DNA of 64,000 nucleotides from Pseudomonas sp. ACM7 (lineage in GTDB: Bacteria > Pseudomonadota > Gammaproteobacteria > Pseudomonadales > Pseudomonadaceae). Below, piece by piece: positions 24,642 through 46,222 of the stretch. Position 1 is the stretch's first letter; every line of letters starts with the position of its first letter. The notes below the pieces were generated by a model, which worked only from the letters and a program-made list of their open reading frames with translations, ran no database searches and was not told the origin of the DNA. Made by a program: the position numbers and the translations under genes. The DNA lies in contig NZ_CP024866.1 in assembly GCF_004136015.1 (NCBI RefSeq), positions 2,134,460-2,198,459 of the forward strand, read 5' to 3'.

Positions 24642-24995
24642 GTCAAAACCTCCGTGTATCAAAGAATGATCGAGTGTAGTAGTCCACCGCGCTGCTTAGC
24701 TACCTCGCCGGCATAGGGACTACACAGTCATCGGCAATCTCTCAATAAAAAAGCCGCTAACTCTGCCGTTGACCACTGACAGAGCCGACAGACATGCCCA
24801 CCACGATGTGGATAATGGCCAAACGACAGCCATGCACGAACCAACCGGTACATTTCATTGAGCAAAATGTAACCATCATTTGCTACGCGCCCGCCGCAAC
24901 GGGATAATGCGCGCCACTCGGCGCTAAGCGCTACGTCAGGTAGTTCGCGTTTTTTGCGACTCTCCGCGTCAAGGAAGCCCGCAAGGGCGGGATGA
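24642..24995. promoter_or_regulatory. Divergent gap between parA-like gene and aryl polyene operon
   Basis: This 354-base gap must contain the promoter of the 20-gene operon and of the ParA gene. I see a loose inverted repeat (GTGTAGTAGTCC at 24674-24685 against GGGACTACAC ending near 24725), an A-rich tract near 24745, and a small hairpin GCCCGC-AAG-GGCGGG directly before the first gene. No convincing sigma-70 pair was found. The GC content around 24740-24880 is lower than in the flanking genes. Confidence 0.35.
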
Positions 24996-25721
24996 ATGTC
25001 TGTGATCAATTTCAACATCGCCCAATGGCGCGCGTGGGCCCCTGGGCTCGAAAGCGTGGACGATTGGCAGGCCTGGAGCCGACAACCGGTCGTGCTTGCG
25101 AGCAGCGATGCCGCACCCGACGTCTCGTTTCTGCCGGCCATGCAGCGCCGGCGACTCAGTCGTCTCGCGCGGATGGCGTTCAGTGTCGGCTGGCCCTTGG
25201 CCGATGGCCGCCAGGACCTACCGTTGGTCTTTATTTCTCGCCACGGCGAAACCCCGCGCACCTTCGATATCCTCAGCGATCTGGCTGCCGATCAGCCGCT
25301 GTCGCCGACTCAATTCAGCCTGTCCGTGCACAACGCGATCATAGGCCTGTGGTCGATCATGCGCGGCGAAACCAGCGAAATGACTGCCCTCGCTGCAGCC
25401 GGCGATGGCCTTGAACACGGCATGCTAGAGGCCGCGGCTTTGCTTTCCGAGGGCGCTCCCGCGGTACTGCTGATCGTCACCGAAGAGCAACCGCCCGAGG
25501 CCTACTCGACCTGGATCGACGACGTGCCGTTCCCTTACGCGGTCGGCCTGCTGATCACCCCCGGAAACGACTGGCAGTTGTCCCTGAACAGCGCCTCGGA
25601 TGAGTTGTCCAAAGCCCACTGGCCCCATGCCCTGAACCTATTGAGTACCCTGCTCGGCCAGCAGACAACCTGCCAACATGCCTGGAAAAATCGTGTATGG
25701 ACCTGGCAACGCAACCTGTAA
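24996..25721 (+). CDS. Ketosynthase-like chain-length factor (aryl polyene, ApeC type)
   Basis: 241 residues of the short beta-ketoacyl synthase-like family (PF13723). It has FSLSVHNAIIGLWSI where a catalytic ketosynthase has TACTSS, so the active-site Cys is absent. In aryl polyene pathways such a protein pairs with a catalytic ketosynthase (here 39775-40971) and sets chain length; the pairing is inferred from the described ApeO-ApeC complex. It is the first gene of the operon. The ATG at 24996 follows GGGCGGGATGA. Confidence 0.85.
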   Translation: MSVINFNIAQWRAWAPGLESVDDWQAWSRQPVVLASSDAAPDVSFLPAMQRRRLSRLARMAFSVGWPLADGRQDLPLVFISRHGETPRTFDILSDLAADQPLSPTQFSLSVHNAIIGLWSIMRGETSEMTALAAAGDGLEHGMLEAAALLSEGAPAVLLIVTEEQPPEAYSTWIDDVPFPYAVGLLITPGNDWQLSLNSASDELSKAHWPHALNLLSTLLGQQTTCQHAWKNRVWTWQRNL

Positions 25722-26509
25722 CCGAAAAAAACCGCGACGCCTATTACTGGCGCCTGCTGGCTACCGCCGCAAGCTTCACCCTGTTCGGGTTGGGCGGGCT
25801 GTGCCTGCGGCTTGTGGTTTTCCCGCTACTGAACTGCCTGCCCGGCGATGCCCGGACCCACCGGCGGCGAGCGCGGCACACCGTCGCCCGCCTGTTCTGG
25901 TTTTTTGTGCGGTTCATGGCTCGCACCGGTGTGCTGACTTACGACATCCAGGGCGCCGAAAAACTCGGTCGACCGGGGCAAATGATCATTGCCAATCACC
26001 CGTCGCTGATTGATGTGGTGTTCCTGATCGGCCTGGTGCGCCACGCCAACTGCGTGGTCAAGAAAAGCCTCTGGGAGAACCCTTTTACCCGCGGCCCGCT
26101 GCGCTGCATCGAATACATCAGCAACGACGGCAGTATGGACATGCTCGATGCCGCTGCCGACGCGCTGAAAAGCGGCCAGACCCTGATCATCTTTCCTGAA
26201 GGCACCCGCACTCGGCCCGGTCAGGCGCCAGCCTTCCATCGGGGTGCTGCGGCAATCGCTCTGCGGGGTGCGAAAATCCTCACCCCGGTGATTATCAAGG
26301 TCAGCCCGACCACGTTGACCAAGGCCGAGCCCTGGTATCGGATCCCCAAACGCCGTGTGCACTTCAGTTTCCGTGTCGGGGCCGATATAGACCCACAAGC
26401 CTTCGCCTCGCAGGGCCCTGCTCCTCAGGCCTCGCGTAAGCTCAATGACTATTTGCATCATTACTACATTAAGGAGCTCGCCGAAGATGAGCGATCTGCA
26501 CACTCTTAG
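25697..26509 (+). CDS. PlsC-type lysophospholipid acyltransferase
   Basis: 270 residues with one N-terminal hydrophobic helix (about 20-45) and the acyltransferase motifs NHPSLID (catalytic His-x4-Asp) and FPEGTRTRPG. It should move an acyl chain from ACP or CoA to a lipid or glycolipid acceptor at the inner membrane. In this setting the acyl chain is likely the polyene or a fatty acid of its lipid anchor. The gene overlaps the previous one by 25 bases. Confidence 0.88.
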   Translation: MDLATQPVTEKNRDAYYWRLLATAASFTLFGLGGLCLRLVVFPLLNCLPGDARTHRRRARHTVARLFWFFVRFMARTGVLTYDIQGAEKLGRPGQMIIANHPSLIDVVFLIGLVRHANCVVKKSLWENPFTRGPLRCIEYISNDGSMDMLDAAADALKSGQTLIIFPEGTRTRPGQAPAFHRGAAAIALRGAKILTPVIIKVSPTTLTKAEPWYRIPKRRVHFSFRVGADIDPQAFASQGPAPQASRKLNDYLHHYYIKELAEDERSAHS

Positions 26510-26762
26510 TCTCAAGCAGGAAATCAAAGAACTGATCATCGACGCCCTGGGCCTTGAAGACATCAGCGCACAAGACATCGGCGACGACCAGACGCTGTTC
26601 GGCGAAGGCTTGGGCCTGGATTCGGTAGACGCTCTGGAACTCGGCCTGGCAATCCAGAAAAAGTACGGCATCAAAATCGACGCCGACGCCAAAGACACCC
26701 GCAATCACTTCAGCAACGTGGCGAGCCTTGCGGCGTTCGTCACTGCAAAACAGGCAGCTTGA
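26487..26762 (+). CDS. Acyl carrier protein 1 of the aryl polyene pathway
   Basis: 91 residues, acidic four-helix ACP. The phosphopantetheine site is Ser46 in GLGLDSVDALEL. The chosen ATG at 26487 has AAGGAG upstream and begins inside the end of the acyltransferase gene (overlap 23 bases). Aryl polyene clusters carry two ACPs that probably serve different steps (starter loading and extension); which is which cannot be told here. Confidence 0.9.
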   Translation: MSDLHTLSLKQEIKELIIDALGLEDISAQDIGDDQTLFGEGLGLDSVDALELGLAIQKKYGIKIDADAKDTRNHFSNVASLAAFVTAKQAA

Positions 26763-26771
26763 GACCGGACC

Positions 26772-27026
26772 ATGCAAACTCGTGACGACATTTTCAACAC
26801 CCTGCGCGATGCTCTGGTCGAACTCTTCGAGCTGGACCCCGAGCGCGTGAGCCTCGAATCCAACCTGTATCAGGACCTGGAAATCGACAGCATTGACGCG
26901 GTCGACCTGATCGATCACATCAAACGCCAGACTGGCAAGAAAATCGCTGCCGAAGAGTTCAAATCGGTGCGTACCGTCAGCGACGTGGTCGAGGCGGTCT
27001 ACCGTCTGGTTCAGCCGGCCGCATGA
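26772..27026 (+). CDS. Acyl carrier protein 2 of the aryl polyene pathway
   Basis: 84 residues, ACP fold with phosphopantetheine site Ser40 in LEIDSIDAVDLI. It follows the first ACP by nine bases. The helix II sequence differs clearly from ACP1 (DSVDALELGL against DSIDAVDLID), so the two are not a recent duplication. Confidence 0.9.
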   Translation: MQTRDDIFNTLRDALVELFELDPERVSLESNLYQDLEIDSIDAVDLIDHIKRQTGKKIAAEEFKSVRTVSDVVEAVYRLVQPAA

Positions 27027-27568
27027 GCCGACTGATCGGCCTCGGCCTGCTGCTGGCGGGCCTGCTGTACCCCTTTGCGGTGTATTTCGGCATGGAGCAC
27101 TTTGCCCCGTGGCAGTTCGGTCTGCTGCTGGGCAGCCTGTGGCTGGCCCGGGCACTGCTCGGTACGCGCAAGCCCGGCAGTCTGTGGATGGCGATCACCG
27201 CGATCACTTTTTGCCTGTTGCTGGCGTTGTTCGACAGCCCGCTGCTGCTGCGCTGGTACCCGGTGCTGATCAGCGCGTTCATGCTCGGGCTGTTTGGCCT
27301 GAGCTTGATCGTTGGCCCGCCAATCATCGAACGCCTGGCGCGTTTGCGCGAACCGCAACTGCCGGCCAAGGCGATTGTTTATACCCGCCAGGTGACGATC
27401 GTCTGGTGCGTGTTTTTCTTCTGTAACGGTTTGCTCGCCGCCGCCCTGACCCTCTGGGCGCCGCTGAGTTGGTGGATGTTGTACACCGGCCTGATTTCCT
27501 ACGGATTGATGGGCCTGCTATTTGCCATTGAATGGCTTATACGACAACGGGTACGAGGCCACCCATGA
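27023..27568 (+). CDS. COG4648-type inner membrane protein
   Basis: 181 residues with about five or six hydrophobic helices (LGLLLAGLLYPFAVYFG, MAITAITFCLLLALF, WYPVLISAFMLGLFGLSLIVG, VWCVFFFCNGLLAAALTLW). It belongs to the conserved membrane protein family found next to the ACP and ligase genes in aryl polyene clusters. The biochemical role is unknown. It overlaps both neighbours by four bases (ATGA type), so it is coupled to ACP2 and the ligase. Confidence 0.8.
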   Translation: MSRLIGLGLLLAGLLYPFAVYFGMEHFAPWQFGLLLGSLWLARALLGTRKPGSLWMAITAITFCLLLALFDSPLLLRWYPVLISAFMLGLFGLSLIVGPPIIERLARLREPQLPAKAIVYTRQVTIVWCVFFFCNGLLAAALTLWAPLSWWMLYTGLISYGLMGLLFAIEWLIRQRVRGHP

Positions 27569-29247
27569 ATTGGATAAAACTTGAGCAATTGTTGCTCAAG
27601 GCACAACCGGAACGTGCCGTGACGGCCGAACCGGCACTGAATCACGCACAGCTTTGCGAACAGGCTTTAAGCCTCGCCGCGGGCCTGCAAGCCCAGGGTG
27701 CACGGCGTATTGCCGTGCACCTTGAGGACGCCGCTGACCTGACGATTGCCCTGCTGGGTGCCTGGCGTGCCGGGGTCAGCGTGCTGCTGCCCGCAGACCT
27801 GCAAGCCCAGACTCGCCAGCGCTGGTCGACCGAAGTCGATCTGTGGCTGACCGATCAGGCCGATGACGCACACCTGAGCGATTACCGGCATCCGCCGTTG
27901 ATGGCGGCCGCACTGGATCTGGATCGCTGTTCGCTGAGCCTGTGCACGTCCGGCTCCAGTGGCGAGCCCAAGCGCATCGACAAAACCCTGCGCCAACTGG
28001 CCAATGAAGTCGAAGCGCTGGAACTGCTCTGGGGCGCCGATCTTGGTACGGCTTGCATCATCGGCAGCGTCGCCACTCAGCATATTTACGGATTGTTGTT
28101 TCGAGTGCTGTGGCCGCTGTGCGCCGGGCGCTCGTTTGTGCGCAAGCAGCTGGCATTCCCTGAAGATCTGCAGCGCGCCAGCCGCGAACACCCGGTATTC
28201 GCCTGGGTCGCCAGCCCGGCGCTGCTCAAGCGCATGGGCGACAACCTCGACTGGCCCGCATTAAGTGCGGTTCGCCGGGTATTTTCCTCCGGCGGCGCCT
28301 TGCCGGCCGAGGCCGCACAAAGCCTGCATCAACGCCTGCAGCAGTGGCCGACGGAAATCCTCGGCAGCTCGGAAACCGGCGGCATCGCCTGGCGTCAGGG
28401 CGACGATCTCTGGCAGCCCTTTGCTGACATTGAATTGAGCCAGGACAGCGACGGCGCCCTGCTCATTGCTTCGCCGTACTTGGCGCCCGGGCATATCGAA
28501 CACACCGCGGATGCCGCGCGAATCGCTGCCGACGGCCGATTCGAACTGCTCGGACGGCTGGACCGGATCGTCAAACTGGAAGAAAAACGTATCTCACTAC
28601 CGATGCTGGAACAGGCCCTGATGGCCCACGACTGGGTCGCCGAAGCGCGTCTTGGCGTGGTTCAGGAAAACCGCGCTTCATTGGGTGCGCTGCTGGTGCT
28701 GACCGAGTCAGGCCTGCATGCGTTGCGCAATCAGGGTCGACGCACCCTCACGCAAGAATTGCGTCAGCATTTGAGCCAGCATTGCGAAGCCCTGGCGCTG
28801 CCACGACGCTGGCGCCTGCTGCGGCAACTACCGCTGAACGCACAGGGCAAACTGCCCCAGGCCATCGTTGAAGCCCTGCTGCTGGCGCCGCGCCCAAAGG
28901 CGCCGGAAGTGCTGGATCAGGTCGAAGTCGATGGCGAGTGGAGCCTGCAACTGGCGGTACCACCCGACCTCGCCTACTTCAGCGGCCACTTCCCCCAAAC
29001 GCCGGTATTGCCCGGCGTGGTGCAAGTGGAGTGGGCGTTAATGCTGGGCCAGCAATTGATGGACCTGCCGGAAAAATTCGCTGGCATGGAAGTGCTGAAA
29101 TTCCAGCAACTGGTGCGCCCCGGCGATGAAGTCCAGCTGCACCTGCGCTTCGATCCGACGCGCAGCAAGTTGTATTTCGCCTATCGCAACGAGACCGCGA
29201 CCTGCTCCAGTGGGCGGATCTTGCTGGAGGCCTCAAGCGATGCATAA
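27565..29247 (+). CDS. AMP-ligase fused to ApeI-type hot-dog dehydratase
   Basis: 560 residues in two parts. Residues 1 to about 440 form an ANL-superfamily adenylating enzyme (TSGSSGEPK at 128-136, [11 protein letters not shown] near 270, and a C-terminal lobe with [14 protein letters not shown]). Residues about 455-560 form a single hot-dog dehydratase domain with [13 protein letters not shown] (His475). It should activate the aryl starter acid and load it onto ACP, while the fused domain dehydrates 3-hydroxyacyl-ACP. In described systems these are ApeH and ApeI, as I recall separate proteins. The stop at 29247 overlaps a first copy of ATGCATAAC (see REP element). Confidence 0.88.
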
Positions 29248-29271
29248 CTTTGGTGAGTGCTGCGCACTCAA

Positions 29272-29344
29272 TCGCGAGCAAGCTCGCTCCCACAGGGGAT
29301 TCGTGGTTAACAGAGATCCAATGTGGGAGCGAGCTTGCTCGCGA
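29272..29344. repeat. REP doublet inside the aryl polyene operon, with flanking 9-bp repeat
   Basis: Inverted REP arms 29272-29294 and 29322-29344 lie in the only large gap of the operon. ATGCATAAC occurs at 29240-29248, overlapping the ligase stop, and again at 29379-29387, where it is the start of the glycosyltransferase gene. The 130-base segment between the copies holds the REP doublet. This looks like an insertion that duplicated the overlapping stop/start junction. Confidence 0.85.
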
Positions 29345-29378
29345 TGCAGGCACCTCGGTCCTTCAGGTGAACACCAAC

Positions 29379-30113
29379 ATGCATAACCCCTGCGCAATCA
29401 TCCCGGTCTACAACCACGAAACCGCCATCACCACGGTGGTTGATGCGGTACTCGCCAGCAGCCTGCCATGCATTCTCGTGGACGACGCCAGTAGCCCGGC
29501 CTGTGCAAAGGTCCTCGATCAACTGGCCCAGCGCGACAAGGTGTTCCTGATCCGGCTCGCCGCCAACCAGGGCAAGGGTGGCGCGGTCATGACCGGTTTT
29601 CGCGAAGCCTCGCGCCTGGGCTTCAGCCATGCCTTGCAGGTGGACGCCGACGGTCAGCATGATCTGCAAGACGTCCGGACCTTCATCGAACTGTCACGCG
29701 CCCATCCCGAGGCGGTGATCTGCGGCTATCCGCGATACGACGCCAGCGTGCCGAAAGGTCGCTTGTACGCCCGTTACCTGACTCACGTCATGGTCTGGAT
29801 CAACACCCTGTCGTTGCAGATTCGCGATTCCATGTGCGGCTTCCGTGTCTATCCGTTGCCACCGACCCTGGCGCTGATCGATTCGGCGAAGATCGGCAAG
29901 CGCATGGACTTCGACTCGGACATTCTCGTACGACTGGCCTGGCGCAATCTCCCCATGCAATGGCTGCAAACCAAAGTCCATTACCCGCTGGATGGCGTCT
30001 CGCATTTCCGCCTGTTCTACGACAACGTACTGATTACGAGCATGCACACCCGGTTGTTCTTCGGCATGTTGCTGCGGGCGCCAGTGATTCTCTGGCGACG
30101 GTGGCGGGCATGA
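29379..30113 (+). CDS. Family-2 glycosyltransferase
   Basis: 244 residues: GT-A fold start CAIIPVYNHE, nucleotide-sugar motif VDADGQHDLQD (DxD-like DAD) and QIRDSMCGFRVY. A C-terminal hydrophobic stretch is weak, so it is probably membrane-associated. It resembles dolichol-phosphate mannosyltransferase-like enzymes. In an aryl polyene pathway it may add a sugar to the lipid anchor or head. The start at 29379 has AGGTGA eight bases before it, downstream of the REP doublet. Reading upstream in frame enters REP sequence. Confidence 0.85.
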   Translation: MHNPCAIIPVYNHETAITTVVDAVLASSLPCILVDDASSPACAKVLDQLAQRDKVFLIRLAANQGKGGAVMTGFREASRLGFSHALQVDADGQHDLQDVRTFIELSRAHPEAVICGYPRYDASVPKGRLYARYLTHVMVWINTLSLQIRDSMCGFRVYPLPPTLALIDSAKIGKRMDFDSDILVRLAWRNLPMQWLQTKVHYPLDGVSHFRLFYDNVLITSMHTRLFFGMLLRAPVILWRRWRA

Positions 30114-31057
30114 GCACTGACGCGGATAAAAAGCACTGGGCTGACCGCGAAGAGCGCGGCAGCTTCTGGCTGATGAAATTCACCGCACTCTGCGCCAAAG
30201 TGCTGGGCCGGCGGCTGCTGAGCCCGCTGCTGTACGGCATCGTTCTGTACTTTTTCCTGTTCGGGCGCAGCGCCCGTCACAGCGCCTGGCAATACCAGCA
30301 ACGGCTCGCCGACTGGAGTGGTCGCAACGAATTGCGCCCGACCCATTGGCGAGTGTTCGGCCAGTTCATGGCCTTCGCCGACTCCATGCTCGACAAGCTC
30401 GACGTATGGAACGGCAAGTTGAGCATCGAGCAGATTGAAATCATCGACCCGGCCTTACTGCGCAATCAACTGCGCGGCACCCGCGGGCAGATGCTGGTGG
30501 GCGCCCATTTGGGCAATCTTGAGGTCTGCCGTGCTTTGGCGGAGATCGGCGAAAAAGTCACGATGAACGTGCTGGTACACACCAAGCACGCCGAACACTT
30601 CAACCGCTTGCTCGGCGAAGCCGGCGCGACCAATCTGCGGCTGATTCAGGTCAGCGAGCTGGACCCGCTGATCATGCTGCAACTCCATGAACGCCTGGAG
30701 CGCGGCGAGTGGCTGGCGATTGCCGGCGACCGCGTGCCGCTGCACGGTGGACGCAGCGTGACCGTGGATTTCCTCGGCCATCAAGCCGCGTTCCCTCAGG
30801 GGCCATGGTTGCTGGCCGGTCTGCTGAAATGCCCGATCAACCTGATGCTGTGCCTGAAGAAGCCGACGGGCGACTATCGACTGACCCTCGAACCGTTCGC
30901 CGAGGCCGTGGTGTGGAAGCGCAGCGACCGCGAGCAGGTCATTCATCAGTGGGCCTCCCGCTATGCCGAACGCTTGGGTCACTATTGCCTTGAAGCGCCC
31001 CAACAATGGTTCAACTTTTACCCTTTCTGGAAGACCGATGACGACGCCAACGCTTGA
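30110..31057 (+). CDS. LpxL/HtrB-type lipid acyltransferase
   Basis: 315 residues with one N-terminal membrane helix (LLYGIVLYFFLFG) and the lysophospholipid acyltransferase superfamily layout of lipid A acyltransferases: GAHLGNLEVCRAL (the HxxxxE/D-like catalytic site, here H-L-G-N-L-E), later GDRVPLHGGRSVTVDFLG. It should transfer an acyl group from ACP to a glycolipid. With the PlsC-type enzyme it gives the cluster two acyltransferases. Its ATG overlaps the glycosyltransferase stop by four bases. Confidence 0.88.
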   Translation: MSTDADKKHWADREERGSFWLMKFTALCAKVLGRRLLSPLLYGIVLYFFLFGRSARHSAWQYQQRLADWSGRNELRPTHWRVFGQFMAFADSMLDKLDVWNGKLSIEQIEIIDPALLRNQLRGTRGQMLVGAHLGNLEVCRALAEIGEKVTMNVLVHTKHAEHFNRLLGEAGATNLRLIQVSELDPLIMLQLHERLERGEWLAIAGDRVPLHGGRSVTVDFLGHQAAFPQGPWLLAGLLKCPINLMLCLKKPTGDYRLTLEPFAEAVVWKRSDREQVIHQWASRYAERLGHYCLEAPQQWFNFYPFWKTDDDANA

Positions 31058-32582
31058 GCCGGTAACCTTCGGCGAACTCCCTTTGCGCATCGAAGACGTG
31101 CTGGCCCTGGCCAACCGTCAGGTGCCGACGCAGTTGCAAGGCGACCCTGCGTACCGCGAGCGTATCGCCAAGGGTGCGCGATTCCTGGACTCCCTGCTGG
31201 ACAAGGAAGGCGTGATCTACGGCGTGACCACCGGTTACGGCGATTCTTGCGTGGTCGCGGTGCCGCTGCATCACGTCGAGGCGTTGCCCCGTCATTTGTA
31301 TACGTTCCACGGCTGCGGTCTGGGCAAACTGCTCGATGCACAAGCCACTCGTGCGGTACTGGCGGCGCGTTTGCAGTCGCTGTGCCACGGCGTGTCCGGG
31401 GTGCGTGTGGAACTGCTGGAACGCCTGCAAGCCTTCCTCGAACACGACATTCTGCCGCTGATCCCGGAAGAAGGTTCGGTGGGTGCCAGCGGTGATCTGA
31501 CGCCGTTGTCTTACGTCGCCGCGACCTTGTCCGGCGAGCGTGAAGTGATGTTCCGTGGTGAACGCTGGCAAGCTGCCGACGTACACCGCGAACTGGGTTG
31601 GGAACCGCTGGTACTGCGCCCGAAAGAAGCGCTGGCGCTGATGAACGGCACCGCTGTCATGACCGGTCTCGCGTGCCTGGCCTACGCCCGCGCCGATTAC
31701 CTGCTGCAACTGGCCACGCGCATCACCGCGTTGAACGTGGTCGCCCTGCAAGGCAACCCCGAGCACTTCGACGAGCGCCTGTTCGCCACCAAACCGCATC
31801 CGGGGCAGATGCAAGTCGCCGCGTGGTTGCGCAAGGATCTGGCGATCGACGCGCCGACCGCGCCGCTGCATCGCCTGCAAGACCGCTATTCCCTGCGTTG
31901 TGCACCCCACGTCCTCGGCGTATTGGCCGACAGCCTGAACTGGCTGCGCTCGTTCATCGAGATCGAGCTCAACAGTGCCAACGACAACCCGATTATCGAC
32001 GCCGAAGCCGAGCGCGTGCTGCACGGCGGGCACTTCTACGGCGGCCACATTGCGTTCGCCATGGACAGCCTGAAAAACCTGGTAGCCAACGTCGCCGATC
32101 TGCTCGATCGTCAACTCGCCCTGCTGGTGGACGAGCGTTACAACCATGGCCTGCCAAGCAACCTGTCCGGCGCCACCGCTGACCGGGCGATGCTCAATCA
32201 CGGCTTCAAAGCCGTGCAGATCGGCACCAGTGCCTGGACCGCCGAAGCGCTGAAAAACACCATGCCGGCCAGCGTCTTTTCGCGTTCCACCGAGTGCCAC
32301 AACCAGGACAAAGTGAGCATGGGCACCATCGCCGCCCGCGATGCGATCCGTGTGCTGGAACTGACCGAACAGGTTGCCGCTGCCACCCTGCTGGCCGCCA
32401 ACCAAGGCGTCTGGCTGCGCAGCAAGGCCGAGGATGCCCGTCCATTGCCGCCCGCCCTGGCCGCCATGCACGAGGAGTTGGCCAAGGACTTCCCGCCGGT
32501 CATCGAAGACCGCGCGCTGGAAGGCGAACTGCGCCTGTGCCTGAAGCGTATTGCCGAGCAACACTGGAGGCTGCATGCGTAG
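31038..32582 (+). CDS. Aromatic amino acid ammonia-lyase (HAL/PAL/TAL family)
   Basis: 514 residues, full length. The MIO cofactor triad is Ala150-Ser151-Gly152 in GSVGASGDLTPL, with catalytic Tyr61 in YGVTTGYGD, and SNDNPI-like segment SANDNPIID later. The enzyme removes ammonia from His, Phe or Tyr to give an aryl-acrylate. At the selectivity position, where histidase has Ser-His, this protein has Phe-His (YTFHGCGLG), so it is probably not a plain histidase. No other hut gene is present. It most likely supplies the pathway starter acid. The ATG at 31038 overlaps the previous gene by 20 bases. Confidence 0.9.
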   Translation: MTTPTLEPVTFGELPLRIEDVLALANRQVPTQLQGDPAYRERIAKGARFLDSLLDKEGVIYGVTTGYGDSCVVAVPLHHVEALPRHLYTFHGCGLGKLLDAQATRAVLAARLQSLCHGVSGVRVELLERLQAFLEHDILPLIPEEGSVGASGDLTPLSYVAATLSGEREVMFRGERWQAADVHRELGWEPLVLRPKEALALMNGTAVMTGLACLAYARADYLLQLATRITALNVVALQGNPEHFDERLFATKPHPGQMQVAAWLRKDLAIDAPTAPLHRLQDRYSLRCAPHVLGVLADSLNWLRSFIEIELNSANDNPIIDAEAERVLHGGHFYGGHIAFAMDSLKNLVANVADLLDRQLALLVDERYNHGLPSNLSGATADRAMLNHGFKAVQIGTSAWTAEALKNTMPASVFSRSTECHNQDKVSMGTIAARDAIRVLELTEQVAAATLLAANQGVWLRSKAEDARPLPPALAAMHEELAKDFPPVIEDRALEGELRLCLKRIAEQHWRLHA

Positions 32583-33000
32583 CAAGGGAGTGCTTCACAC
32601 CGATACGGAAATCCTCGTGCCGTTCTTTGATGTCGACACCATGAACGTTGTCTGGCACGGCCATTACATCAAATACCTGGAAGTCGCCCGCTGCGCGCTG
32701 CTGGACAAGATCGGCCACAACTACACGGCCATGGTCGAGTCGGGTTACGCGTGGCCAGTGATCGATCTGCAATTGCGTTATGTGCGCGGCGCCGTGTTCG
32801 GCCAAAAGCTGAACGTGCGCGCCAATCTGGTGGAATGGGAGAACCGTCTGAAGATCAGCTACCTGATCAGCGATTTGGAAACCGGCGAACGCTTGACCCG
32901 CGCCAGTTCCGTGCAGGTCGCCGTCGACATGAGCAGCCGCGAAATGCAGTTGGCCTCACCCAAGGTTTTCAGCGACGCTGTTGAAAGGATGCTCGCATGA
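32575..33000 (+). CDS. Hot-dog acyl-CoA/ACP thioesterase (4HBT family)
   Basis: 141 residues of the 4-hydroxybenzoyl-CoA thioesterase type: FFDVDTMNVVWHGHYIKYLE with the catalytic Asp in the usual place. It probably releases or edits acyl chains on ACP or CoA in the pathway. GGAGG lies just before the ATG at 32575, which overlaps the ammonia-lyase end by eight bases. Confidence 0.88.
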   Translation: MRSKGVLHTDTEILVPFFDVDTMNVVWHGHYIKYLEVARCALLDKIGHNYTAMVESGYAWPVIDLQLRYVRGAVFGQKLNVRANLVEWENRLKISYLISDLETGERLTRASSVQVAVDMSSREMQLASPKVFSDAVERMLA

Positions 33001-36060: not shown

Positions 36061-37217
36061 TGATCGCCGTGTTCTGGGTCATGGCCCTGGCGCTGTTCGC
36101 CGTGGCCACCCGTGTCGGTCGTCACTTCGGCGTAATCCCGATCGTCAGCCAGTTGCTGCTGGCCACCTTCGGCCTGCCGCTGCTGATGTACTTCTGGATC
36201 GAACCCCAGTGGCAATTGAGCGGCGCCGCACTGGTCGCGCCGGCCTGGCTGAAAAACCTCTACAGCCTGAGCTTTGCGTTGTTGCTGGGGCACATTCTCA
36301 GTGACGTGATTGACCTGCGACTCGACCGTCAGAGCCTGAAAATCGCCCTGCCGAGTTTCTCCCTTCCGTTTGCCTGCGGCCTCGCGACAGCGGTCTGGCT
36401 GTTACCGCCGCAACCGTGGATCAGTTCACTGGCGGTCGGTCTGGTGTTCGCCATCACCGCGATCCCGGTGTTGTATCTGTACCTGCGGCACATCAAGTAC
36501 CCGCCTGCCGCTACCCGGCGACTGGTGCAGACCGCGATCCTCATCGACCTCACTTGCTGGACCCTGTTCGCCATCGCCCAGGGCAGCCTGCACCTGAGCA
36601 GCCTCTTGCTGCCGCTGGCCGGCGCCTGCCTGCCGTTGCTGCTGCGTCTGCTCCGATTGCGCCAACCGTTGCTGCACAGCGGTTGCTTCTTCGCACTGCT
36701 GGTCGTGGCGGAACACTTCAAGCTCAATGCGCTGATTTTCGGCATCGGTTACCTGCTGTGGATGGCCGCGCTCAAAGTGCCGCTGGTGCTGCCGTTGCCG
36801 GTGATCTGGATGAGTCATTTGCAGACGTATATCGCGATCCCGCTGATCCTCACGTTCGGCATCGTGCAAATCAACGTCCACGCGGCCATGGCCAGCCTTG
36901 GCTGGGTCCAACTGAGCGCACTGCTGCTGTTCCCGATTGCCAGTAAACTGCTGGGCAACTGGCTGGGCCTCGGCTGGGCCGGCGCCTCGTTTGAAGGCGC
37001 CAGTCGCTGGCGGGAAAGTGTCTTGCTGAATATTCGTGGCTTGAGCGAGATCGTCTTTCTCAACCTGCTGCTGCAACAACAACTCATCAGCCCGGCGCTG
37101 TACTTCGCGCTGATGGTGATGGGCCTGATCGCGACACTGCTGCCGGCACTCGCCGGCATGCACCGACCCCCTCTGAACATCGCCATCCCGGCAAGGAGCC
37201 CCCGTGCCAACAGTTGA
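36057..37217 (+). CDS. CPA2-like (Na+/H+ exchanger fold) membrane protein
   Basis: 386 residues with about 11 membrane helices and no cytosolic regulatory domain. Two CPA2 exchanger signatures are visible: AITAIPVLYLYLRHI with ILIDLTCW (place of the ion-binding Asp-Asp pair, here Asp164-Leu) and NIRGLSEIVFLNLLLQQ near residue 325. Losing one Asp of the pair suggests altered or electroneutral transport, or a non-exchanger role. It overlaps MMPL (ATGATG start) and the flavoprotein gene, so it is an integral member of the operon. I do not know a function for it in aryl polyene synthesis. Confidence 0.72.
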   Translation: MMIAVFWVMALALFAVATRVGRHFGVIPIVSQLLLATFGLPLLMYFWIEPQWQLSGAALVAPAWLKNLYSLSFALLLGHILSDVIDLRLDRQSLKIALPSFSLPFACGLATAVWLLPPQPWISSLAVGLVFAITAIPVLYLYLRHIKYPPAATRRLVQTAILIDLTCWTLFAIAQGSLHLSSLLLPLAGACLPLLLRLLRLRQPLLHSGCFFALLVVAEHFKLNALIFGIGYLLWMAALKVPLVLPLPVIWMSHLQTYIAIPLILTFGIVQINVHAAMASLGWVQLSALLLFPIASKLLGNWLGLGWAGASFEGASRWRESVLLNIRGLSEIVFLNLLLQQQLISPALYFALMVMGLIATLLPALAGMHRPPLNIAIPARSPRANS

Positions 37218-38451
37218 AATGGAACATCGCCAGGTCGTGGTGATCGGTGCAGGTCCATCGGGCGCCATCGCCGCCGCGCTGCTCAAGCGCAAGGGTCACG
37301 ACGTATTGATGATCGAACGCCAGCATTTCCCACGGTTTTCCATCGGTGAAAGCCTGTTGTCCCACTGCCTGGATTTTGTCGAAGAAGCCGGCATGCTCGA
37401 GGCGGTGAACGCCGCCGGATTCCAGTTGAAAAACGGTGCGGCATTCGCCTGGGGCGAGCAATACAGCGCCTTTGATTTCGGCGAGACTTTCAGCAACGGC
37501 AAGCCGACCACCTTCCAGGTCCTGCGCGCCGATTTCGACAAGCTGCTGGCCGATCAGGCCGCGCTGCAAGGCGTCGACGTTCGTTACGGCGAAGCCATCG
37601 TCAGCGTCGATTTCACCCTGCCGAAACCGCAGCTCGACGTGCTTCGCGAAGACGGCAGCCAGTACCGCGTCGAAGCCGATTTCGTGCTGGATGCCAGCGG
37701 CTACGGGCGTGTGCTGCCACGCTTGCTCGACCTTGAAGCACCGTCGGATTTCCCGGTGCGCCAGGCCGTGTTCACCCACGTCGAAGACCACATCGACAAC
37801 CCGGCCTTCGAGCGGGAAAAAATCCTCATCACCACTCATCCGATCCACCGCGACATCTGGTTCTGGACCATCCCGTTCAGCAACGGCCGTTGTTCGGTGG
37901 GCGTGGTTGCGGCAGCCGAACACTTCGAAGGCCGCATGGAGAATCTGGACGATTGCCTGCGAGGGTTTATCGCTGAAACCCCAAGCCTGGCCGGCGTGTT
38001 GAACAACGCCGTGTGGGATACGCCGGCTCGAACCATCGGCGGCTACTCGGCCAACGTCAAAACGCTCCACGGGCCAGGCTTTGCCTTGCTTGGCAACGCG
38101 GCGGAATTTCTCGACCCGGTGTTCTCCTCTGGCGTGACCATCGCCATGCGCTCGGCGAGCATGGCCGCCGCGGTTCTGCATCGCCAACTGCAAGGCGAAC
38201 GTGTCGATTGGCAGACTGAGTTCGCCATCCCGCTCAAGCGCGGCGTCGACACGTTCCGTTGCTACGTTGAAGGCTGGTACGCCGGGACGTTCCAGGATGT
38301 GATTTACCATGAGGGCGGCTCGCCCGATATTCGCCGCATGATCAGCTCGATCCTCGCCGGTTATGCCTGGGACGAGCGTAATCCGTTCGTCGCCGAACCC
38401 AAGCGCCGGCTGCGGATGCTCTCGGAGCTCTGTGCAAGGGACGCCACATGA
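37204..38451 (+). CDS. FAD-dependent oxidoreductase, tryptophan-halogenase-like
   Basis: 415 residues. The N-terminal FAD motif is GAGPSG (15-20); the family motif WxWxIP is WFWTIP (219-224), and Lys76 in GFQLKNGAAFAWG lies where flavin halogenases have their catalytic Lys, as far as I recall. The second FAD motif GFALLGNAAEFLDPV is present. Flavin-dependent halogenases carry these marks, but so do related hydroxylases and reductases. In a polyene cluster it could halogenate or hydroxylate the aryl head or desaturate the chain. The start is GTG with AAGGAG five bases upstream. Confidence 0.8.
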   Translation: MPTVEMEHRQVVVIGAGPSGAIAAALLKRKGHDVLMIERQHFPRFSIGESLLSHCLDFVEEAGMLEAVNAAGFQLKNGAAFAWGEQYSAFDFGETFSNGKPTTFQVLRADFDKLLADQAALQGVDVRYGEAIVSVDFTLPKPQLDVLREDGSQYRVEADFVLDASGYGRVLPRLLDLEAPSDFPVRQAVFTHVEDHIDNPAFEREKILITTHPIHRDIWFWTIPFSNGRCSVGVVAAAEHFEGRMENLDDCLRGFIAETPSLAGVLNNAVWDTPARTIGGYSANVKTLHGPGFALLGNAAEFLDPVFSSGVTIAMRSASMAAAVLHRQLQGERVDWQTEFAIPLKRGVDTFRCYVEGWYAGTFQDVIYHEGGSPDIRRMISSILAGYAWDERNPFVAEPKRRLRMLSELCARDAT

Positions 38452-39173
38452 GCTACTTGAGCGACACCTACGTCGAAGAAACCCGTTTCGGTTTCTGGTT
38501 CCTGCGCAGCCACACCTGGCAGCACCATGTACTGCGAGTGGCAATCACCGATTTGCGTAGCCTGTTCAGCGAAACCCCGCCGAGCAACCCGGTGCTGCTG
38601 GATGCCGGTTGCGGTCAGGGCAAATCGTTCCAGTACCTGCGCCAGACCTTTGCCCCCCAGCGCCTGATCGGTCTGGACGCCGACCCTCACAGCCTGAACC
38701 TGGCCGGCGAAGAAGCCGTCCGTCAGGGCATGGCGGTGGAGTTGACCGGCAGCGACTGCGCGAGCATCAACGTCCCGGACGCCAGCGTCGACCTGCTGTT
38801 CTGTCACCAGACCTTCCACCATCTGGTGCAGCAGGAACAGGCTCTGGCCGAGTTCTACCGCGTGCTCAAGCCCGGTGGCTATCTGCTGTTCGCCGAATCG
38901 ACCGAGGCTTACATTGATACCTGGGTGATCCGCTGGTTGTTCCGTCATCCGATGCACGTGCAGAAGAGCGCCGCCGGGTATCTGGACATGATTCGTCAGC
39001 AGGGTTTCGAACTCGGCCCGGAAAACGTGTCTTATCCATACTTGTGGTGGAGCCGCGCCAAGGATTTCGGCCTGTTTGAACGCTTGGGTCTGCGCCAGCC
39101 AAAGCCCTTCGGCCAACGGGAAGAAACCTTGGTCAATGTGGTCGCGCGCAAACCTCTTGAAGGTGCTGTTTGA
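38448..39173 (+). CDS. Class I SAM-dependent methyltransferase
   Basis: 241 residues; Rossmann SAM site LLDAGCGQGKSFQYL (about 50-64), acidic residue GLDADPHS, and motif LVQQEQALAEFYRVLKPGGYLLF. It probably methylates the aryl ring, as in aryl polyenes with a methylated phenol head; the target is inferred. Its ATG overlaps the flavoprotein stop by four bases. Confidence 0.87.
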   Translation: MSYLSDTYVEETRFGFWFLRSHTWQHHVLRVAITDLRSLFSETPPSNPVLLDAGCGQGKSFQYLRQTFAPQRLIGLDADPHSLNLAGEEAVRQGMAVELTGSDCASINVPDASVDLLFCHQTFHHLVQQEQALAEFYRVLKPGGYLLFAESTEAYIDTWVIRWLFRHPMHVQKSAAGYLDMIRQQGFELGPENVSYPYLWWSRAKDFGLFERLGLRQPKPFGQREETLVNVVARKPLEGAV

Positions 39174-39778
39174 TGTCTAGCGTAATTCAAACCTGTGGGA
39201 GCGGGCTTGCTCGCGAATGCGATGGGCCAGCCACCTCCAATGCTGGATGTGCCAACGCCATCGCGAGCAAGCTCGCTCCCACAGGGTGTGCGGTGGTGCT
39301 GCGCTTCCTGCTTTTGGGTTGCGTCCTGTTGCTGAGCGCCTGCGCCAGTCGGGCGCCGCTGCCCGAGCAAACCCCGAACCTGTCGTTGCCGCTGCAATTG
39401 CACATCCAGCGTCTGGTGGCCGATCAACGGCAGGACTGGGTGCTGGTGATACAGCGTGAAGGCCTAGGCATTCGCTGGTCGATGATGGACTTGCTGGGCA
39501 TTCCACAGGCACGTCAGAAACTGGTCGACGGCGAGTGGCAGGCTGACGGTCTGCTGCCGCCCAATCCGGAAGCGCGAGAGCTGTTCGCCGCGCTGCTGTT
39601 TGTGCTGACCCCCAAAGATGAACTGTCGGGCAACTATCCCGCCGCGTGGCAGCATGGCTCGCAACGATCCTTGCCAGCGCACTGGGAAGTCCGCTACTCA
39701 CAACCCATGAGCTTTGAATTGAACCTGCCCAAAGGCCCGAAATATCAAGTCACGCCGCTCAGCGGGGACGCGCCATGA
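39173..39778 (+). CDS. DUF3261 lipoprotein with REP-derived N-terminus
   Basis: The mature part matches DUF3261 proteins of aryl polyene clusters: signal FLLLGCVLLLSAC with a lipobox (LSAC), then a small beta-rich domain (LQLHIQRLVADQRQDW). It is probably an outer membrane lipoprotein that receives the polyene lipid. The ATG at 39173 overlaps the methyltransferase stop and has GAAGG upstream, but codons 8-37 are REP sequence (39194-39283) read in frame. Two adjacent GTG codons at 39293 and 39296, six bases after an AGGG, could instead start a normal lipoprotein. I cannot decide between these starts. Confidence 0.75.
   Translation: MSSVIQTCGSGLARECDGPATSNAGCANAIASKLAPTGCAVVLRFLLLGCVLLLSACASRAPLPEQTPNLSLPLQLHIQRLVADQRQDWVLVIQREGLGIRWSMMDLLGIPQARQKLVDGEWQADGLLPPNPEARELFAALLFVLTPKDELSGNYPAAWQHGSQRSLPAHWEVRYSQPMSFELNLPKGPKYQVTPLSGDAP
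39194..39283. repeat. REP doublet at the 5' end of the DUF3261 gene
   Basis: TGTGGGAGCGGGCTTGCTCG at 39194 and the inverted GAGCAAGCTCGCTCCCACA ending 39283. It lies between the overlapping ATG and the lipoprotein signal core, with no stop codon in the gene's frame. Confidence 0.88.
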
Positions 39779-40971
39779 CGGCCTACCTGAATGCCCTCGG
39801 GGTGATCTGCGCCCTGGGCCGTGACAAGTCCGAAGTCGCTCGCAACCTGTTTGCCGGTGACTGTTCGGGCATGCGCAATGAGGCTGGCTGGGTGGCGGAA
39901 CGGTCGTTGCCCGTGGCCGCGGTCCGCGGCGAACTGGCGCCGATCCCGGCTGAGCTTGCGCCGCAAGACACTCGTAATAATCAATTGCTGCTGGAAGCCG
40001 CGCTGCAAATTCGCGAAGACATCGACCAGGCGATCCAGACCTACGGCCGCGACCGCATCGGTATCGTTCTGGGCACCAGCACCTCGGGCATCGACGAAGC
40101 CAGTCGCGGCCTGGCCCATTACATCCGCGAGCATCAGTTCCCGGCCGATTACGACTATCAGCAACAGGAGCTCGGCGCTCCGGCGAACTTCCTTGCCGAC
40201 TGGCTGCAACTGAGCGGCCCGGCCTATGTGATCTCCACGGCCTGCACCTCCAGCGCCCGAGCGCTGATGAGTGCTCAGCGACTGCTGGACCTGGGCATTT
40301 GCGATGCGGTGCTGTGCGGCGGTGTCGACAGCCTGTGCAAGCTGACCCTCAATGGGTTCTCGGCGCTGGAAGCGGTGTCCGGGCAACGCTGCAACCCGTT
40401 TTCTGTGAACCGTAACGGCATCAACATTGGCGAAGCGGCGGTGCTGTTTTTGATGAGCAAAAATGTCGGCGACAGCCAGCCGATTGCCCTGCTCGGCAGT
40501 GGCGCCAGCTCCGATGCGCATCACATTTCTGCGCCGGAACCGACCGGCCGTGGCGCCCTGCAAGCGATGCGCAAAGCCTTGAGCCGAGCACAACTGCAAC
40601 CGCAACAGATCGATTACCTGAACCTGCACGGCACCGCCACCCAACACAACGACGCCATGGAAAGCCTGGCGGTGGCGACGTTGTTCCCGACGGGTGTGCC
40701 GTGTTCGTCGACCAAACCCATGACCGGCCACACCCTCGGTGCGGCCGGCGCTCTGGAAGCGGCGTTCTGCTGGTTGAGCCTGAGTGCAGGCAATCGCGAG
40801 CACGCCCTGCCGCCTCACGTCTGGGACGGCCAACCGGATCCCAAATTGCCAGCTCTGAATTGGGTGACCCCGGCCGATCGCCTGACGTCCATTGCACCTC
40901 GCTATCTGATGAGCAATTCCTTTGCCTTCGGTGGTAACAACGTCAGCCTGATTATCGGAGACGCCCCATGA
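39775..40971 (+). CDS. Beta-ketoacyl-ACP synthase (aryl polyene, ApeO type)
   Basis: 398 residues, KAS II fold. Catalytic Cys is in ISTACTSSARA, His in LHGTATQHND and His in TGHTLGAAGA, so it is catalytically complete. With the Cys-less partner encoded at 24996-25721 it should form the chain-extending ketosynthase heterodimer; this pairing is inferred from described aryl polyene enzymes. ATGA overlap with the DUF3261 stop. Confidence 0.9.
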   Translation: MTAYLNALGVICALGRDKSEVARNLFAGDCSGMRNEAGWVAERSLPVAAVRGELAPIPAELAPQDTRNNQLLLEAALQIREDIDQAIQTYGRDRIGIVLGTSTSGIDEASRGLAHYIREHQFPADYDYQQQELGAPANFLADWLQLSGPAYVISTACTSSARALMSAQRLLDLGICDAVLCGGVDSLCKLTLNGFSALEAVSGQRCNPFSVNRNGINIGEAAVLFLMSKNVGDSQPIALLGSGASSDAHHISAPEPTGRGALQAMRKALSRAQLQPQQIDYLNLHGTATQHNDAMESLAVATLFPTGVPCSSTKPMTGHTLGAAGALEAAFCWLSLSAGNREHALPPHVWDGQPDPKLPALNWVTPADRLTSIAPRYLMSNSFAFGGNNVSLIIGDAP

Positions 40972-41429
40972 TTGACTGGCCGATCGCCGAACTGCTGCCG
41001 CACGCTGGCGACATGATCTTTATCGAGCAGATCCTGTCGTTCGATGACGAGCAGATTTACACCCGCCTCACGGTCAAACCCGATGGCCTGTTCAACCGCC
41101 CGGACGGCAGCCTGCCGGCCTGGGTCGGCATCGAACTGATGGCCCAGAGCGTCGCCGCCTACGCCGGTTGCCATGCGCGCCAGCGTGGCGATGCGGTGGA
41201 GCTGGGGTTTCTGCTCGGCACCCGCAAATTCGAATGCAACGTCGAGCACTTCCCTGCTGGCACCGAGCTGACCATCCACGGCATCCGCTCGCTGGAAGAC
41301 GACAACGGCATGGGCGTGTTCGAATGCCACATCACCGCGCCCGGCATTCACGCCACCGCTCGTCTGAACGTGTTCCGTCCGCCTCAGGCTGCTCAATACC
41401 TTCATGAAACCCAAGGAACCCAGCCATGA
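40968..41429 (+). CDS. Hot-dog 3-hydroxyacyl-ACP dehydratase (ApeP type)
   Basis: 153 residues, single hot-dog fold with LLPHAGDMIFIEQI (catalytic His13) and GIELMAQSVAAYAG in the central helix. It should dehydrate 3-hydroxyacyl-ACP to the conjugated enoyl product, probably together with the hot-dog domain fused to the AMP-ligase. The gene overlaps both neighbours by four bases. Confidence 0.9.
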   Translation: MIDWPIAELLPHAGDMIFIEQILSFDDEQIYTRLTVKPDGLFNRPDGSLPAWVGIELMAQSVAAYAGCHARQRGDAVELGFLLGTRKFECNVEHFPAGTELTIHGIRSLEDDNGMGVFECHITAPGIHATARLNVFRPPQAAQYLHETQGTQP

Positions 41430-42154
41430 CTGAATCCGTACTGATCACCGGTTCCAGCCGTGGCATCGGCCGCGCCATCGCTTTGCGTCTGGCCCAGGCC
41501 GGGCATGACATCGTGCTGCATTGCCGCAGCGGCCTGGCGGACGCTGAAGCCGTGAAGGCCGAAATCGAAGCCTTGGGGCGCAACGTGCGCATTCTGCAAT
41601 TCGACGTGTCCGATCGCGCCAACTGCAAAGCCATTCTCGAAGCCGACGTGGAAACCCACGGCGCCTATTACGGCGTGGTGCTGAACGCCGGCCTGACGCG
41701 CGACGGTGCTTTTCCGGCCTTGAGCGAAGATGATTGGGACGTGGTGATGCGCACCAACCTCGACGGTTTCTACAACGTGCTGCACCCGGTGATGATGCCG
41801 ATGATTCGTCGTCGCGCGGCCGGGCGGATTGTTTGCATCACCTCGGTTTCCGGGTTGATCGGCAACCGTGGCCAGGTCAACTACAGCGCTTCCAAGGCCG
41901 GTTTGATCGGCGCGGCGAAGGCGTTGGCGATCGAGTTGGGCAAGCGCAAAATTACCGTTAACTGTGTCGCACCCGGCTTGATCGACACCGCGATGCTCGA
42001 TGAAAACGTGCCGGTGGAAGAAATGATGAAAATGATCCCCGCACAACGCATGGGCACCCCGGAAGAGGTGGCCAGCGCGGTGAATTTCCTGATGTCGGCG
42101 GAAGCGTCGTACATCACCCGGCAGGTTCTGGCCGTCAACGGAGGCCTGTGCTGA
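41426..42154 (+). CDS. 3-oxoacyl-ACP reductase (FabG-like, ApeQ type)
   Basis: 242 residues, classical short-chain dehydrogenase: NADP motif TGSSRGIG (about 8-15), NAG segment (VLNAGLTRDG), catalytic Ser and YSASKAG. It reduces the 3-keto group after each extension. No enoyl reductase gene exists in the block, consistent with a fully conjugated polyene product. Confidence 0.92.
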   Translation: MTESVLITGSSRGIGRAIALRLAQAGHDIVLHCRSGLADAEAVKAEIEALGRNVRILQFDVSDRANCKAILEADVETHGAYYGVVLNAGLTRDGAFPALSEDDWDVVMRTNLDGFYNVLHPVMMPMIRRRAAGRIVCITSVSGLIGNRGQVNYSASKAGLIGAAKALAIELGKRKITVNCVAPGLIDTAMLDENVPVEEMMKMIPAQRMGTPEEVASAVNFLMSAEASYITRQVLAVNGGLC

Positions 42155-43380
42155 TGAAGCGCGTCGTCGTCACCGGCATGGCCGGCATCACCTCGCTGGG
42201 TAGCGATTGGGACACCATCGCCGCTAACTTTGCGGCCCACCGCAGCGGCATACGCCGCATGGACGAGTGGGATCGTTTCACCGAACTCAACACGCGCCTC
42301 GCGGGGCCGATCGACGACTTCAAAGTGCCGAGCCACTGGACCCGCAAGCAATTGCGCAGCATGGGCCGCGTCTCGCGCCTGGCGGTCGGCGCGGCAGAAC
42401 AGGCATTGGCCGATGCCGGGCTGTTGGGTGACCCGTCGATCAAGGACGGGCGCATGGGCGTTTCCTGCGGCTCATCCACCGGCAGCACCGACGAGATCAA
42501 GGCGTTCGGCAACATGCTGCTCAACTCGGTGGCCGAGGGCCTGAACGCCAACTCCTATGTGCGCATGATGCCGCACACCACGGCGGCGAATATCAGCATC
42601 TTCTTCGGCATTACCGGCCGATTGATCCCGACCTCCAGCGCTTGCACCAGCGGCAGTCAGGGCATCGGTTATGCCTACGAGTCGGTCAAGTTTGGTCGCC
42701 TGCCATTGATGCTCGCCGGCGGTGCCGAAGAACTGTGCCCCACCGAAGCCATGGTCTTCGATGCGCTCTACGCCACCAGCCTGAAAAACGATGCGCCGCA
42801 AACTTCCCCACGCCCCTACGACAGCGGCCGCGATGGCCTGGTGATCGGCGAAGGCAGCGGCATGCTGGTGCTCGAAGAACTCGAACACGCATTGGCTCGC
42901 GGTGCGCACATCCACGCCGAACTCGTCGGTTTCGGCAGCAACGCCGACGGCCAGCACGCCACCCGCCCAGAGCAGGTCACCATGCGCCGGGCCATGGAGC
43001 TGGCGCTGGAAGACGCCGGGCTGAAGCCTTCTGACATCGGCTACGTGAACGGTCACGGCACCGCGACTGAACAGGGCGACATTGCCGAAACACTGGCAAC
43101 GAGCGCGTTGTTCGGCGAGCACATGCCGATCAGCTCGCAAAAGAGCTTCCTTGGCCACACCCTCGGAGCCTGCGGTGCGCTGGAATCCTGGTTCAGCATC
43201 GAAATGATGAACCGCGACCTGTACGTCCACACCCTCAACCTCGACGACGTCGACCCGCACTGCGGCAAACTCGATTACCTGCGCGGCGAGTTCCGGCAGA
43301 TGAGCAACCAGTACGTGATGAACAATAATTTTGCGTTTGGTGGGGTTAATACTTCGCTGATCTTTCGGCGTTGGTCGTAA
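42154..43380 (+). CDS. Beta-ketoacyl-ACP synthase (FabF-like, ApeR type)
   Basis: 408 residues, complete KAS II: Cys in TSSACTSGSQG, His in VNGHGTATEQGD and His in FLGHTLGACGALE. It is the second catalytic ketosynthase of the cluster, probably a homodimer used for starter or early extension. The ATG at 42154 has GGAGG nine bases before it and overlaps the reductase stop by one base; a GTG at 42148 is too close to the GGAGG. It is the last gene of the operon; a gap of about 160 bases follows, with a degenerate REP fragment (CCCACGCAGGAGCGGGGG). Confidence 0.92.
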   Translation: MKRVVVTGMAGITSLGSDWDTIAANFAAHRSGIRRMDEWDRFTELNTRLAGPIDDFKVPSHWTRKQLRSMGRVSRLAVGAAEQALADAGLLGDPSIKDGRMGVSCGSSTGSTDEIKAFGNMLLNSVAEGLNANSYVRMMPHTTAANISIFFGITGRLIPTSSACTSGSQGIGYAYESVKFGRLPLMLAGGAEELCPTEAMVFDALYATSLKNDAPQTSPRPYDSGRDGLVIGEGSGMLVLEELEHALARGAHIHAELVGFGSNADGQHATRPEQVTMRRAMELALEDAGLKPSDIGYVNGHGTATEQGDIAETLATSALFGEHMPISSQKSFLGHTLGACGALESWFSIEMMNRDLYVHTLNLDDVDPHCGKLDYLRGEFRQMSNQYVMNNNFAFGGVNTSLIFRRWS

Positions 43381-46141: not shown

Positions 46142-46222
46142 CGAACAATATATTGGATTGAATCATTAGGCAGCTATATGCTTTTTTCATTGCCTGACCG
46201 GCTGCGTCCTCCGAGGTCCGAA

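Follow-up and report, generated by a model that had tools for sequence, protein, structure and literature searches.

A lyase-bearing aryl polyene operon in Pseudomonas sp. ACM7 and the possible sources of its starter

The complete genome of Pseudomonas sp. ACM7 (6.6 Mb) was analysed over a stretch of 64,000 nucleotides (contig NZ_CP024866.1, positions 2,134,460 to 2,198,459), which we call the window and whose numbering is used below. Positions 24996-43380 hold a complete aryl polyene (APE, ape) operon, an ordinary member of a known and widespread kind, in which gene 9 encodes an aromatic amino acid ammonia-lyase. Judged from the sequence, we consider it rather probable that this lyase-bearing ape cluster builds a lipid-anchored polyene and that the lyase, converting L-tyrosine to 4-coumarate, is one, probably dispensable, source of the starter. 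The predicted product is a yellow polyene bound to lipid in the outer membrane.

Results

The operon comprises 20 genes, all on one strand. With the listed start codons, overlaps of 1-25 bases were found at 17 of the 19 junctions, the other two being gaps of 9 and 131 bases; for genes 11 and 16 the start is uncertain, and their overlaps would become gaps if translation began further downstream. A pair of ketosynthase and chain length factor (CLF) is present (gene 17, NF006618; gene 1, PF13723). The active site of the CLF is Cys-less, as its single Cys, residue 226 near the C-terminus, lies by position outside the active-site region. Both full ketosynthases carry Cys-His-His motifs and both acyl carrier proteins (ACPs) a DS(V/I) site, and catalytic motifs are also present in the ketoreductase, the ApeI half and the lyase. 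The aryl-ACP ligase ApeH and the dehydratases ApeI and ApeP were recognised as a fusion (PF00501 and PF22818) and a separate protein (PF22817). None of the 20 proteins was recognised by Pfam or NCBIfam as a separate enoyl reductase; the product of gene 19 hits a Pfam family named after enoyl reductases, yet it passes the cut-off of the FabG2 equivalog. Of the transport set, LolA and MMPL proteins were matched by Pfam, the DUF3261 member being placed by position and lipobox only.

These parts agree with an earlier note on this DNA, which had described an aryl polyene-type operon of twenty co-directional genes, nearly all overlapping by 1-25 bases, with a relative of histidine, phenylalanine and tyrosine ammonia-lyases (HAL, PAL and TAL; gene 9) and no enoyl reductase. 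Pfam and NCBIfam support its list of parts, except that Pfam gave no match for DUF3261. Absent from that list were the FAD enzyme (gene 14), the methyltransferase (gene 15) and the antiporter-fold membrane protein (gene 13). The genes are as follows (percentages are identities to CFT073 proteins):

24996..25721, + strand: gene 1, ApeC-like CLF (PF13723, 268 bits; 34% to ApeC)
25697..26509, + strand: gene 2, ApeD-like lysophospholipid acyltransferase (PF01553; 39%)
26487..26762, + strand: gene 3, ApeE-like ACP (PF00550; NF006617 above cut-off; LDSV site)
26772..27026, + strand: gene 4, ApeF-like ACP (PF00550; NF003757 above cut-off; IDSI site)
27023..27568, + strand: gene 5, ApeG-like membrane protein (48% to ApeG over 121 residues; no Pfam match over cut-off)
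27565..29247, + strand: gene 6, ApeH-ApeI fusion of aryl-ACP ligase and dehydratase (PF00501; PF22818, ApeI-like)
29379..30113, + strand: gene 7, GT2 glycosyltransferase, first half of ApeJ (PF00535; 54% to the N-terminal half of ApeJ)
30110..31057, + strand: gene 8, LpxL-type acyltransferase, second half of ApeJ (PF03279; 35% to the C-terminal half of ApeJ)
31038..32582, + strand: gene 9, aromatic amino acid ammonia-lyase (PF00221, 537 bits; ASG triad, F-H, NQD)
32575..33000, + strand: gene 10, ApeK-like thioesterase (PF13279; 48%)
32997..33737, + strand: gene 11, LolA-like carrier, ApeL (PF19574/PF03548; start ATG 32997 or GTG 33153)
33727..36060, + strand: gene 12, MMPL/RND exporter, ApeM (PF03176; 29%)
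36057..37217, + strand: gene 13, antiporter-fold membrane protein, accessory (AlphaFold2 model and Foldseek)
37204..38451, + strand: gene 14, FAD enzyme of the flavin halogenase family, accessory (PF04820; WFWTIP)
38448..39173, + strand: gene 15, class I methyltransferase, accessory (PF08241)
39173..39778, + strand: gene 16, lipoprotein in the DUF3261 (ApeN) position (start ATG 39173 or GTG 39293)
39775..40971, + strand: gene 17, ApeO-like ketosynthase (NF006618, 556 bits, above cut-off; 50%)
40968..41429, + strand: gene 18, ApeP-like dehydratase (PF22817)
41426..42154, + strand: gene 19, ApeQ-like ketoreductase (TIGR01831 FabG2 above cut-off; 59%)
42154..43380, + strand: gene 20, ApeR-like ketosynthase (NF006587, 725 bits, cut-off 470; 54%; GTG at 42148 also open)

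The comparison with the Escherichia coli cluster that the earlier note had proposed was run against APE Ec of CFT073 (c1186-c1204), where 15 of the 20 genes match by tblastn in the same order. CFT073 gave no match to the lyase or the FAD enzyme, has separate ApeH and ApeI and a single ApeJ gene, and its methyltransferase, annotated at the opposite cluster end, does not match gene 15. In the Acinetobacter baumannii APE cluster (CP035931.1, 378278-394459), 17 genes match in the same order, including the lyase (61%) and the FAD enzyme (55%), with a single ligase-dehydratase match across the fusion. Genes 13, 15 and 16 had no tblastn counterpart there, and the cluster is followed directly by a phosphopantetheinyl transferase gene. 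The Pseudoalteromonas THAF3 cluster likewise matches 17 of the 20 genes (tblastn). Both clusters have a lyase annotated in the same slot, and in both comparisons LolA and MMPL reach only 26-28% identity.

To follow the lyase through the genus, a match with E <= 1e-100 was counted as APE-type among 249 sampled Pseudomonas genomes; 45 genomes with HutH only gave about 1e-60 to 1e-72 and seven had no match at all. The CLF was found in 199 genomes and is absent from 50. The lyase was found in 197, all of them with the CLF (one of these, G231, is truncated at a contig end), so that two genomes (G093 and G191) have the CLF without the lyase and none has the lyase without the CLF. Pseudomonas APE clusters have been recognised by polyketide synthase genes together with an ammonia lyase and an acyltransferase (PMC8719888; all papers are cited here from parts of their text), and the cluster of P. 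donghuensis has ammonia lyase genes in common with APE Vf (PMC5851621). APE Vf is the cluster of Aliivibrio fischeri ES114 (MIBiG BGC0000837), under which the Pseudomonas APE clusters are filed; with an ammonia lyase inside it, our operon fits these lyase-bearing, APE Vf-like clusters. The lyase is thus a usual part of Pseudomonas APE operons, already listed in these two papers, and no special feature of this strain.

In a class-wide sample of 369 Gammaproteobacteria, the lyase was found in 16 genomes and PF13723 in 87, all 16 falling within the 87. In 12 of the 16, both lie on the same contig within about 10 kb; in the other four, they are on different contigs of fragmented assemblies.

Sources of the starter

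The earlier note had proposed that the operon makes its own starter with the ammonia-lyase. Read from the sequence, this is possible and is the reading that we prefer; that the lyase is the sole supply is doubtful. Several observations weigh against a necessary role of the lyase. The remaining 71 of the 87 PF13723 genomes in the class sample show no APE-type lyase, and outside Pseudomonas this is the majority, so APE-type operons commonly do without one. An APE pathway of A. baumannii, from a strain other than that of the cluster compared above, was reconstituted in vitro from 4-hydroxybenzoate to APE-ACP (PMC8041823). Finally, G093 lacks gene 13 and the lyase, a short stretch standing in place of the latter, and its frames for the other 18 genes are open. 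Sole supply is doubtful because UbiC (chorismate lyase) is present in the host genome, the A. baumannii system uses 4-hydroxybenzoate in vitro, and two sister genomes have a lyase deletion in common, with purifying selection seen between them in 13 cluster genes. The absence of a chorismate lyase from the operon, which the earlier note stated, carries little weight, the table of the E. coli ape genes being without one as well and UbiC being encoded elsewhere in the genome.

The second lyase-less genome, G191 (L107/L108), has a junction nearly identical to that of G093. Here the lyase is gone, the MMPL frame is broken, ApeO, P and Q are missing and ApeR is reduced to its C-terminal end: this operon is decaying now. 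For the 13 cluster genes common to the two genomes, the median dS was 0.11 and dN/dS lay at 0.00-0.14, similar to the three flanking genes (0.02-0.05). The other seven did not enter this comparison: the lyase and gene 13 have no match in either genome, the MMPL frame is broken in G191, and ApeO, P, Q and R are lost or truncated there. These pairwise estimates, which cover a single evolutionary event, suggest that the remaining genes were kept by purifying selection after the loss of the lyase, provided that the loss is shared. One frame at the G093 junction resembles lyase C-termini and may be a relic of the lyase, a suggestive match whose scores reach only about the shuffle maximum. Among 57 genomes drawn in a search for close relatives of G093, no further one with CLF and without lyase was found.

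Two other accounts of the starter have to be weighed. Tentatively, and with less confidence than in the reading above, lyase-bearing aryl polyene operons may work with two starters: ApeHI would take either 4-coumarate, formed from tyrosine by the lyase, or 4-hydroxybenzoate, formed from chorismate, and the lyase would be a removable module that one Pseudomonas lineage has dispensed with since before two species split. Alternatively, the polyene may start from the 4-hydroxybenzoate of UbiC, with the lyase feeding something else, such as degradation of 4-coumarate to 4-hydroxybenzoate, tailoring or regulation. This we regard as rather unlikely, even though UbiC is encoded in the genome, 4-hydroxybenzoate is used by ApeH of A. 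baumannii and of Xenorhabdus (the latter as told in PMC8253772), and 13 cluster genes of G093 and G191 keep their low dN/dS without a lyase. These two genomes represent only one event, however, and the lyase lies inside the operon and never occurs without the CLF in the 249 genomes, which argues that it serves the pathway somehow.

Substrate of the lyase

Gene 9 has the Ala-Ser-Gly triad of the 4-methylideneimidazole-5-one (MIO) group at residues 151-153 and the catalytic Tyr in YGVTTGYG at 62 (numbering from 31035). All 16 aligned family members share N-Q-D as motif 2 and have either F-H or Y-H as motif 1, gene 9 having F-H and NQD; the role of both motifs is taken from PMC3992019 and PMC9002059, and the residues assigned to motif 2 are our own reading. 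The two HutH-like proteins of the host genome have S-H and Q-E-D instead, and SgTAM, which acts on tyrosine, has S-H and N-Q-D. FlxA of the flexirubin cluster, a tested tyrosine ammonia-lyase, is described with a HAL-like motif 1 and a TAL/PAL-like motif 2 (PMC3992019), the same pattern as in gene 9. Since F-H with NQD fits this description and SgTAM has NQD as well, a tyrosine lyase giving 4-coumarate is the likeliest assignment from these residues.

The model scores stand on the other side, as gene 9 passes no substrate-specific NCBIfam cut-off: it reached 380.6 bits for HutH TIGR01225 (cut-off 539), 314.5 for PAL (519), 318 for tyrosine mutase (501) and, for the TAL models, 313 with FlxA (700) and 416 with BagA/FevW (1000). 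For the orthologue in a sister genus (L008), HutH models even score slightly above BagA/FevW, and specificity is not predictable from sequence according to the FlxA paper (PMC3992019). Because no TAL equivalog cut-off was passed, gene 9 is classed only as a PF00221 aromatic lyase. With no model over its cut-off, NCBIfam was dropped as a substrate predictor for gene 9. A structural ranking of the lyase model was not decisive either, with a tyrosine aminomutase on top and a HAL and a PAL row tied with it.

A histidine or phenylalanine ammonia-lyase, which would lead to an imidazole-capped or plain phenyl-capped polyene, appears very unlikely. The His of motif 1 is HAL-like, a HutH model reaches 396 bits, near the best score of 416, and Phe at the first position of motif 1 recalls the PAL of A. 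variabilis. In contrast, motif 2 is NQD and not the QED of the HutH-like proteins, the host genome already has an ASG-bearing HutH (L001), and the operon encodes an ape-type ligase and ape-type ketosynthases, for which use of 4-hydroxybenzoate is reported.

The flexirubin cluster of Chitinophaga pinensis, with the TAL FlxA and the 4-coumarate-CoA ligase FlxY, forms an aryl polyene by a system of ketosynthase, ketoreductase and dehydratase (PMC3992019). Our operon differs in that its proteins do not reach the NCBIfam cut-offs of FlxA and FlxB and in that, unlike in the flexirubin cluster, no dialkylresorcinol gene was recognised among the 20 genes (Pfam/NCBIfam).

The second HutH-like gene of the host (L002, C1:2243622-2244995) lies beside hutH, outside the window. 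It has lost the residues Ala-Ser-Gly(-Asp) from which the MIO group arises, reading GSVGYLTHMAH there, and is of full length otherwise; this motif recurs in all ten further Pseudomonas copies picked. From its sequence, it is a conserved MIO-less HutH paralogue. In P. fluorescens SBW25, one of two hutH copies is reportedly dispensable for histidine use.

Genomic site

The operon is flanked by the following genes, which is consistent with the equivalents of P. aeruginosa PA5028 and PA5029-5030 that the earlier note named as its neighbours:

23874..24662, - strand: ParA-like ATPase, upstream (PF13614)
45205..46104, - strand: LysR regulator, downstream (PF00126/PF03466)
46178..47497, + strand: MFS transporter, downstream (PF07690)

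Conservation was followed in 80 named loci, the best 80 of 592 candidates and hence close relatives; a single P. costantinii assembly contributed three. Every core gene of the operon was present in 79 or 80 loci, and ParA was its neighbour in 78. Contig ends truncate L039 and L031, and in L095 ParA gave no match. The flanks were also searched for in 30 of the 50 genomes that lack the CLF (19 listed as negative, 11 taken as such from their absence among the CLF-positive entries). ParA was found in all 30 and an MFS match in 29. In 21 of them, the MFS match (76-83%) lies 0.15-4.7 kb from ParA, compared to 21.5 kb in the window; among the remaining nine, the MFS match of eight does not exceed 48% and one has no match. 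The conserved ParA neighbour and the closely spaced flanks in CLF-negative genomes suggest that the operon is an old resident that was lost repeatedly.

The inserted island of the earlier note was rejected on this site conservation, and recent acquisition is most improbable: the short ParA-MFS distance could mark an empty site and 50 of 249 genomes lack the CLF, yet the upstream neighbour is the same in 78 of 80 loci, GC is 0.59-0.63 inside and 0.54-0.62 outside the operon, a genus of the same family (G410) carries the operon beside TrxC, and Pfam revealed no integrase among the 20 genes.

Accessory genes and repeats

Gene 13 has no Pfam match. Its AlphaFold2 model (pLDDT 85.9) has a NapA/NhaP-type antiporter fold, with NapA (5bz2/4bwz) as best Foldseek match (E 6e-7, TM 0.62, 17% identity), and it has an invariant Asp (residue 165, counted in the translation that begins at 36054). 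With matches in 52 of the 80 loci, some of them partial, it is a variable operon accessory beside the MMPL exporter. Gene 14, present in 77 loci, has 3nix as nearest solved chain, followed by flavin halogenases; based on its family, it may introduce a halogen or a hydroxyl group into the aryl head. A halogenase is said to be part of xanthomonadin clusters (PMC3691225). The methyltransferase gene 15 is present in 72 loci and had no match in the clusters of CFT073, A. baumannii CP035931 or THAF3.

Two inverted pairs of repetitive extragenic palindromic (REP) sequences inside the operon are REPIN-like (n=2):

29271..29345, no strand: inverted REP pair in the gap between genes 6 and 7
39192..39285, no strand: inverted REP pair at the 5' end of gene 16, inside the reading frame or immediately upstream, according to which start is used

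In gene 11, the stretch ahead of the signal peptide (32997-33150) varies in length and sequence among the relatives L027, L034, L035 and L040, which leaves its start uncertain.

Discussion

We propose a pathway in which all steps are drawn by homology to ape systems. ApeHI would load an aromatic acid onto an ACP, ApeR would start the chain and ApeO-ApeC would extend it with malonyl units. In every round, ApeQ would reduce and ApeI-ApeP dehydrate, and as there is no enoyl reductase, the chain would keep its conjugated double bonds. Tailoring of the aryl head may fall to the FAD enzyme and the methyltransferase; ApeD, the GT2 and the LpxL-type enzymes may link the acid to lipid, and LolA, MMPL and the lipoprotein may move the polyene outward. 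Loading of 4-coumarate would save one elongation round, while with 4-hydroxybenzoate from UbiC the lyase would not be needed.

In the APE literature searched, which was seen in part, we found no test of the lyase within an APE cluster; key APE papers beyond that scope may report one. For the strain itself, the main value of this analysis is negative, as neither the lyase nor the location of the operon is special to it. A lineage that lost the lyase and kept selection on the remaining genes makes the question of the starter testable, and the near-perfect linkage of lyase and CLF in the genus helps to make it so.

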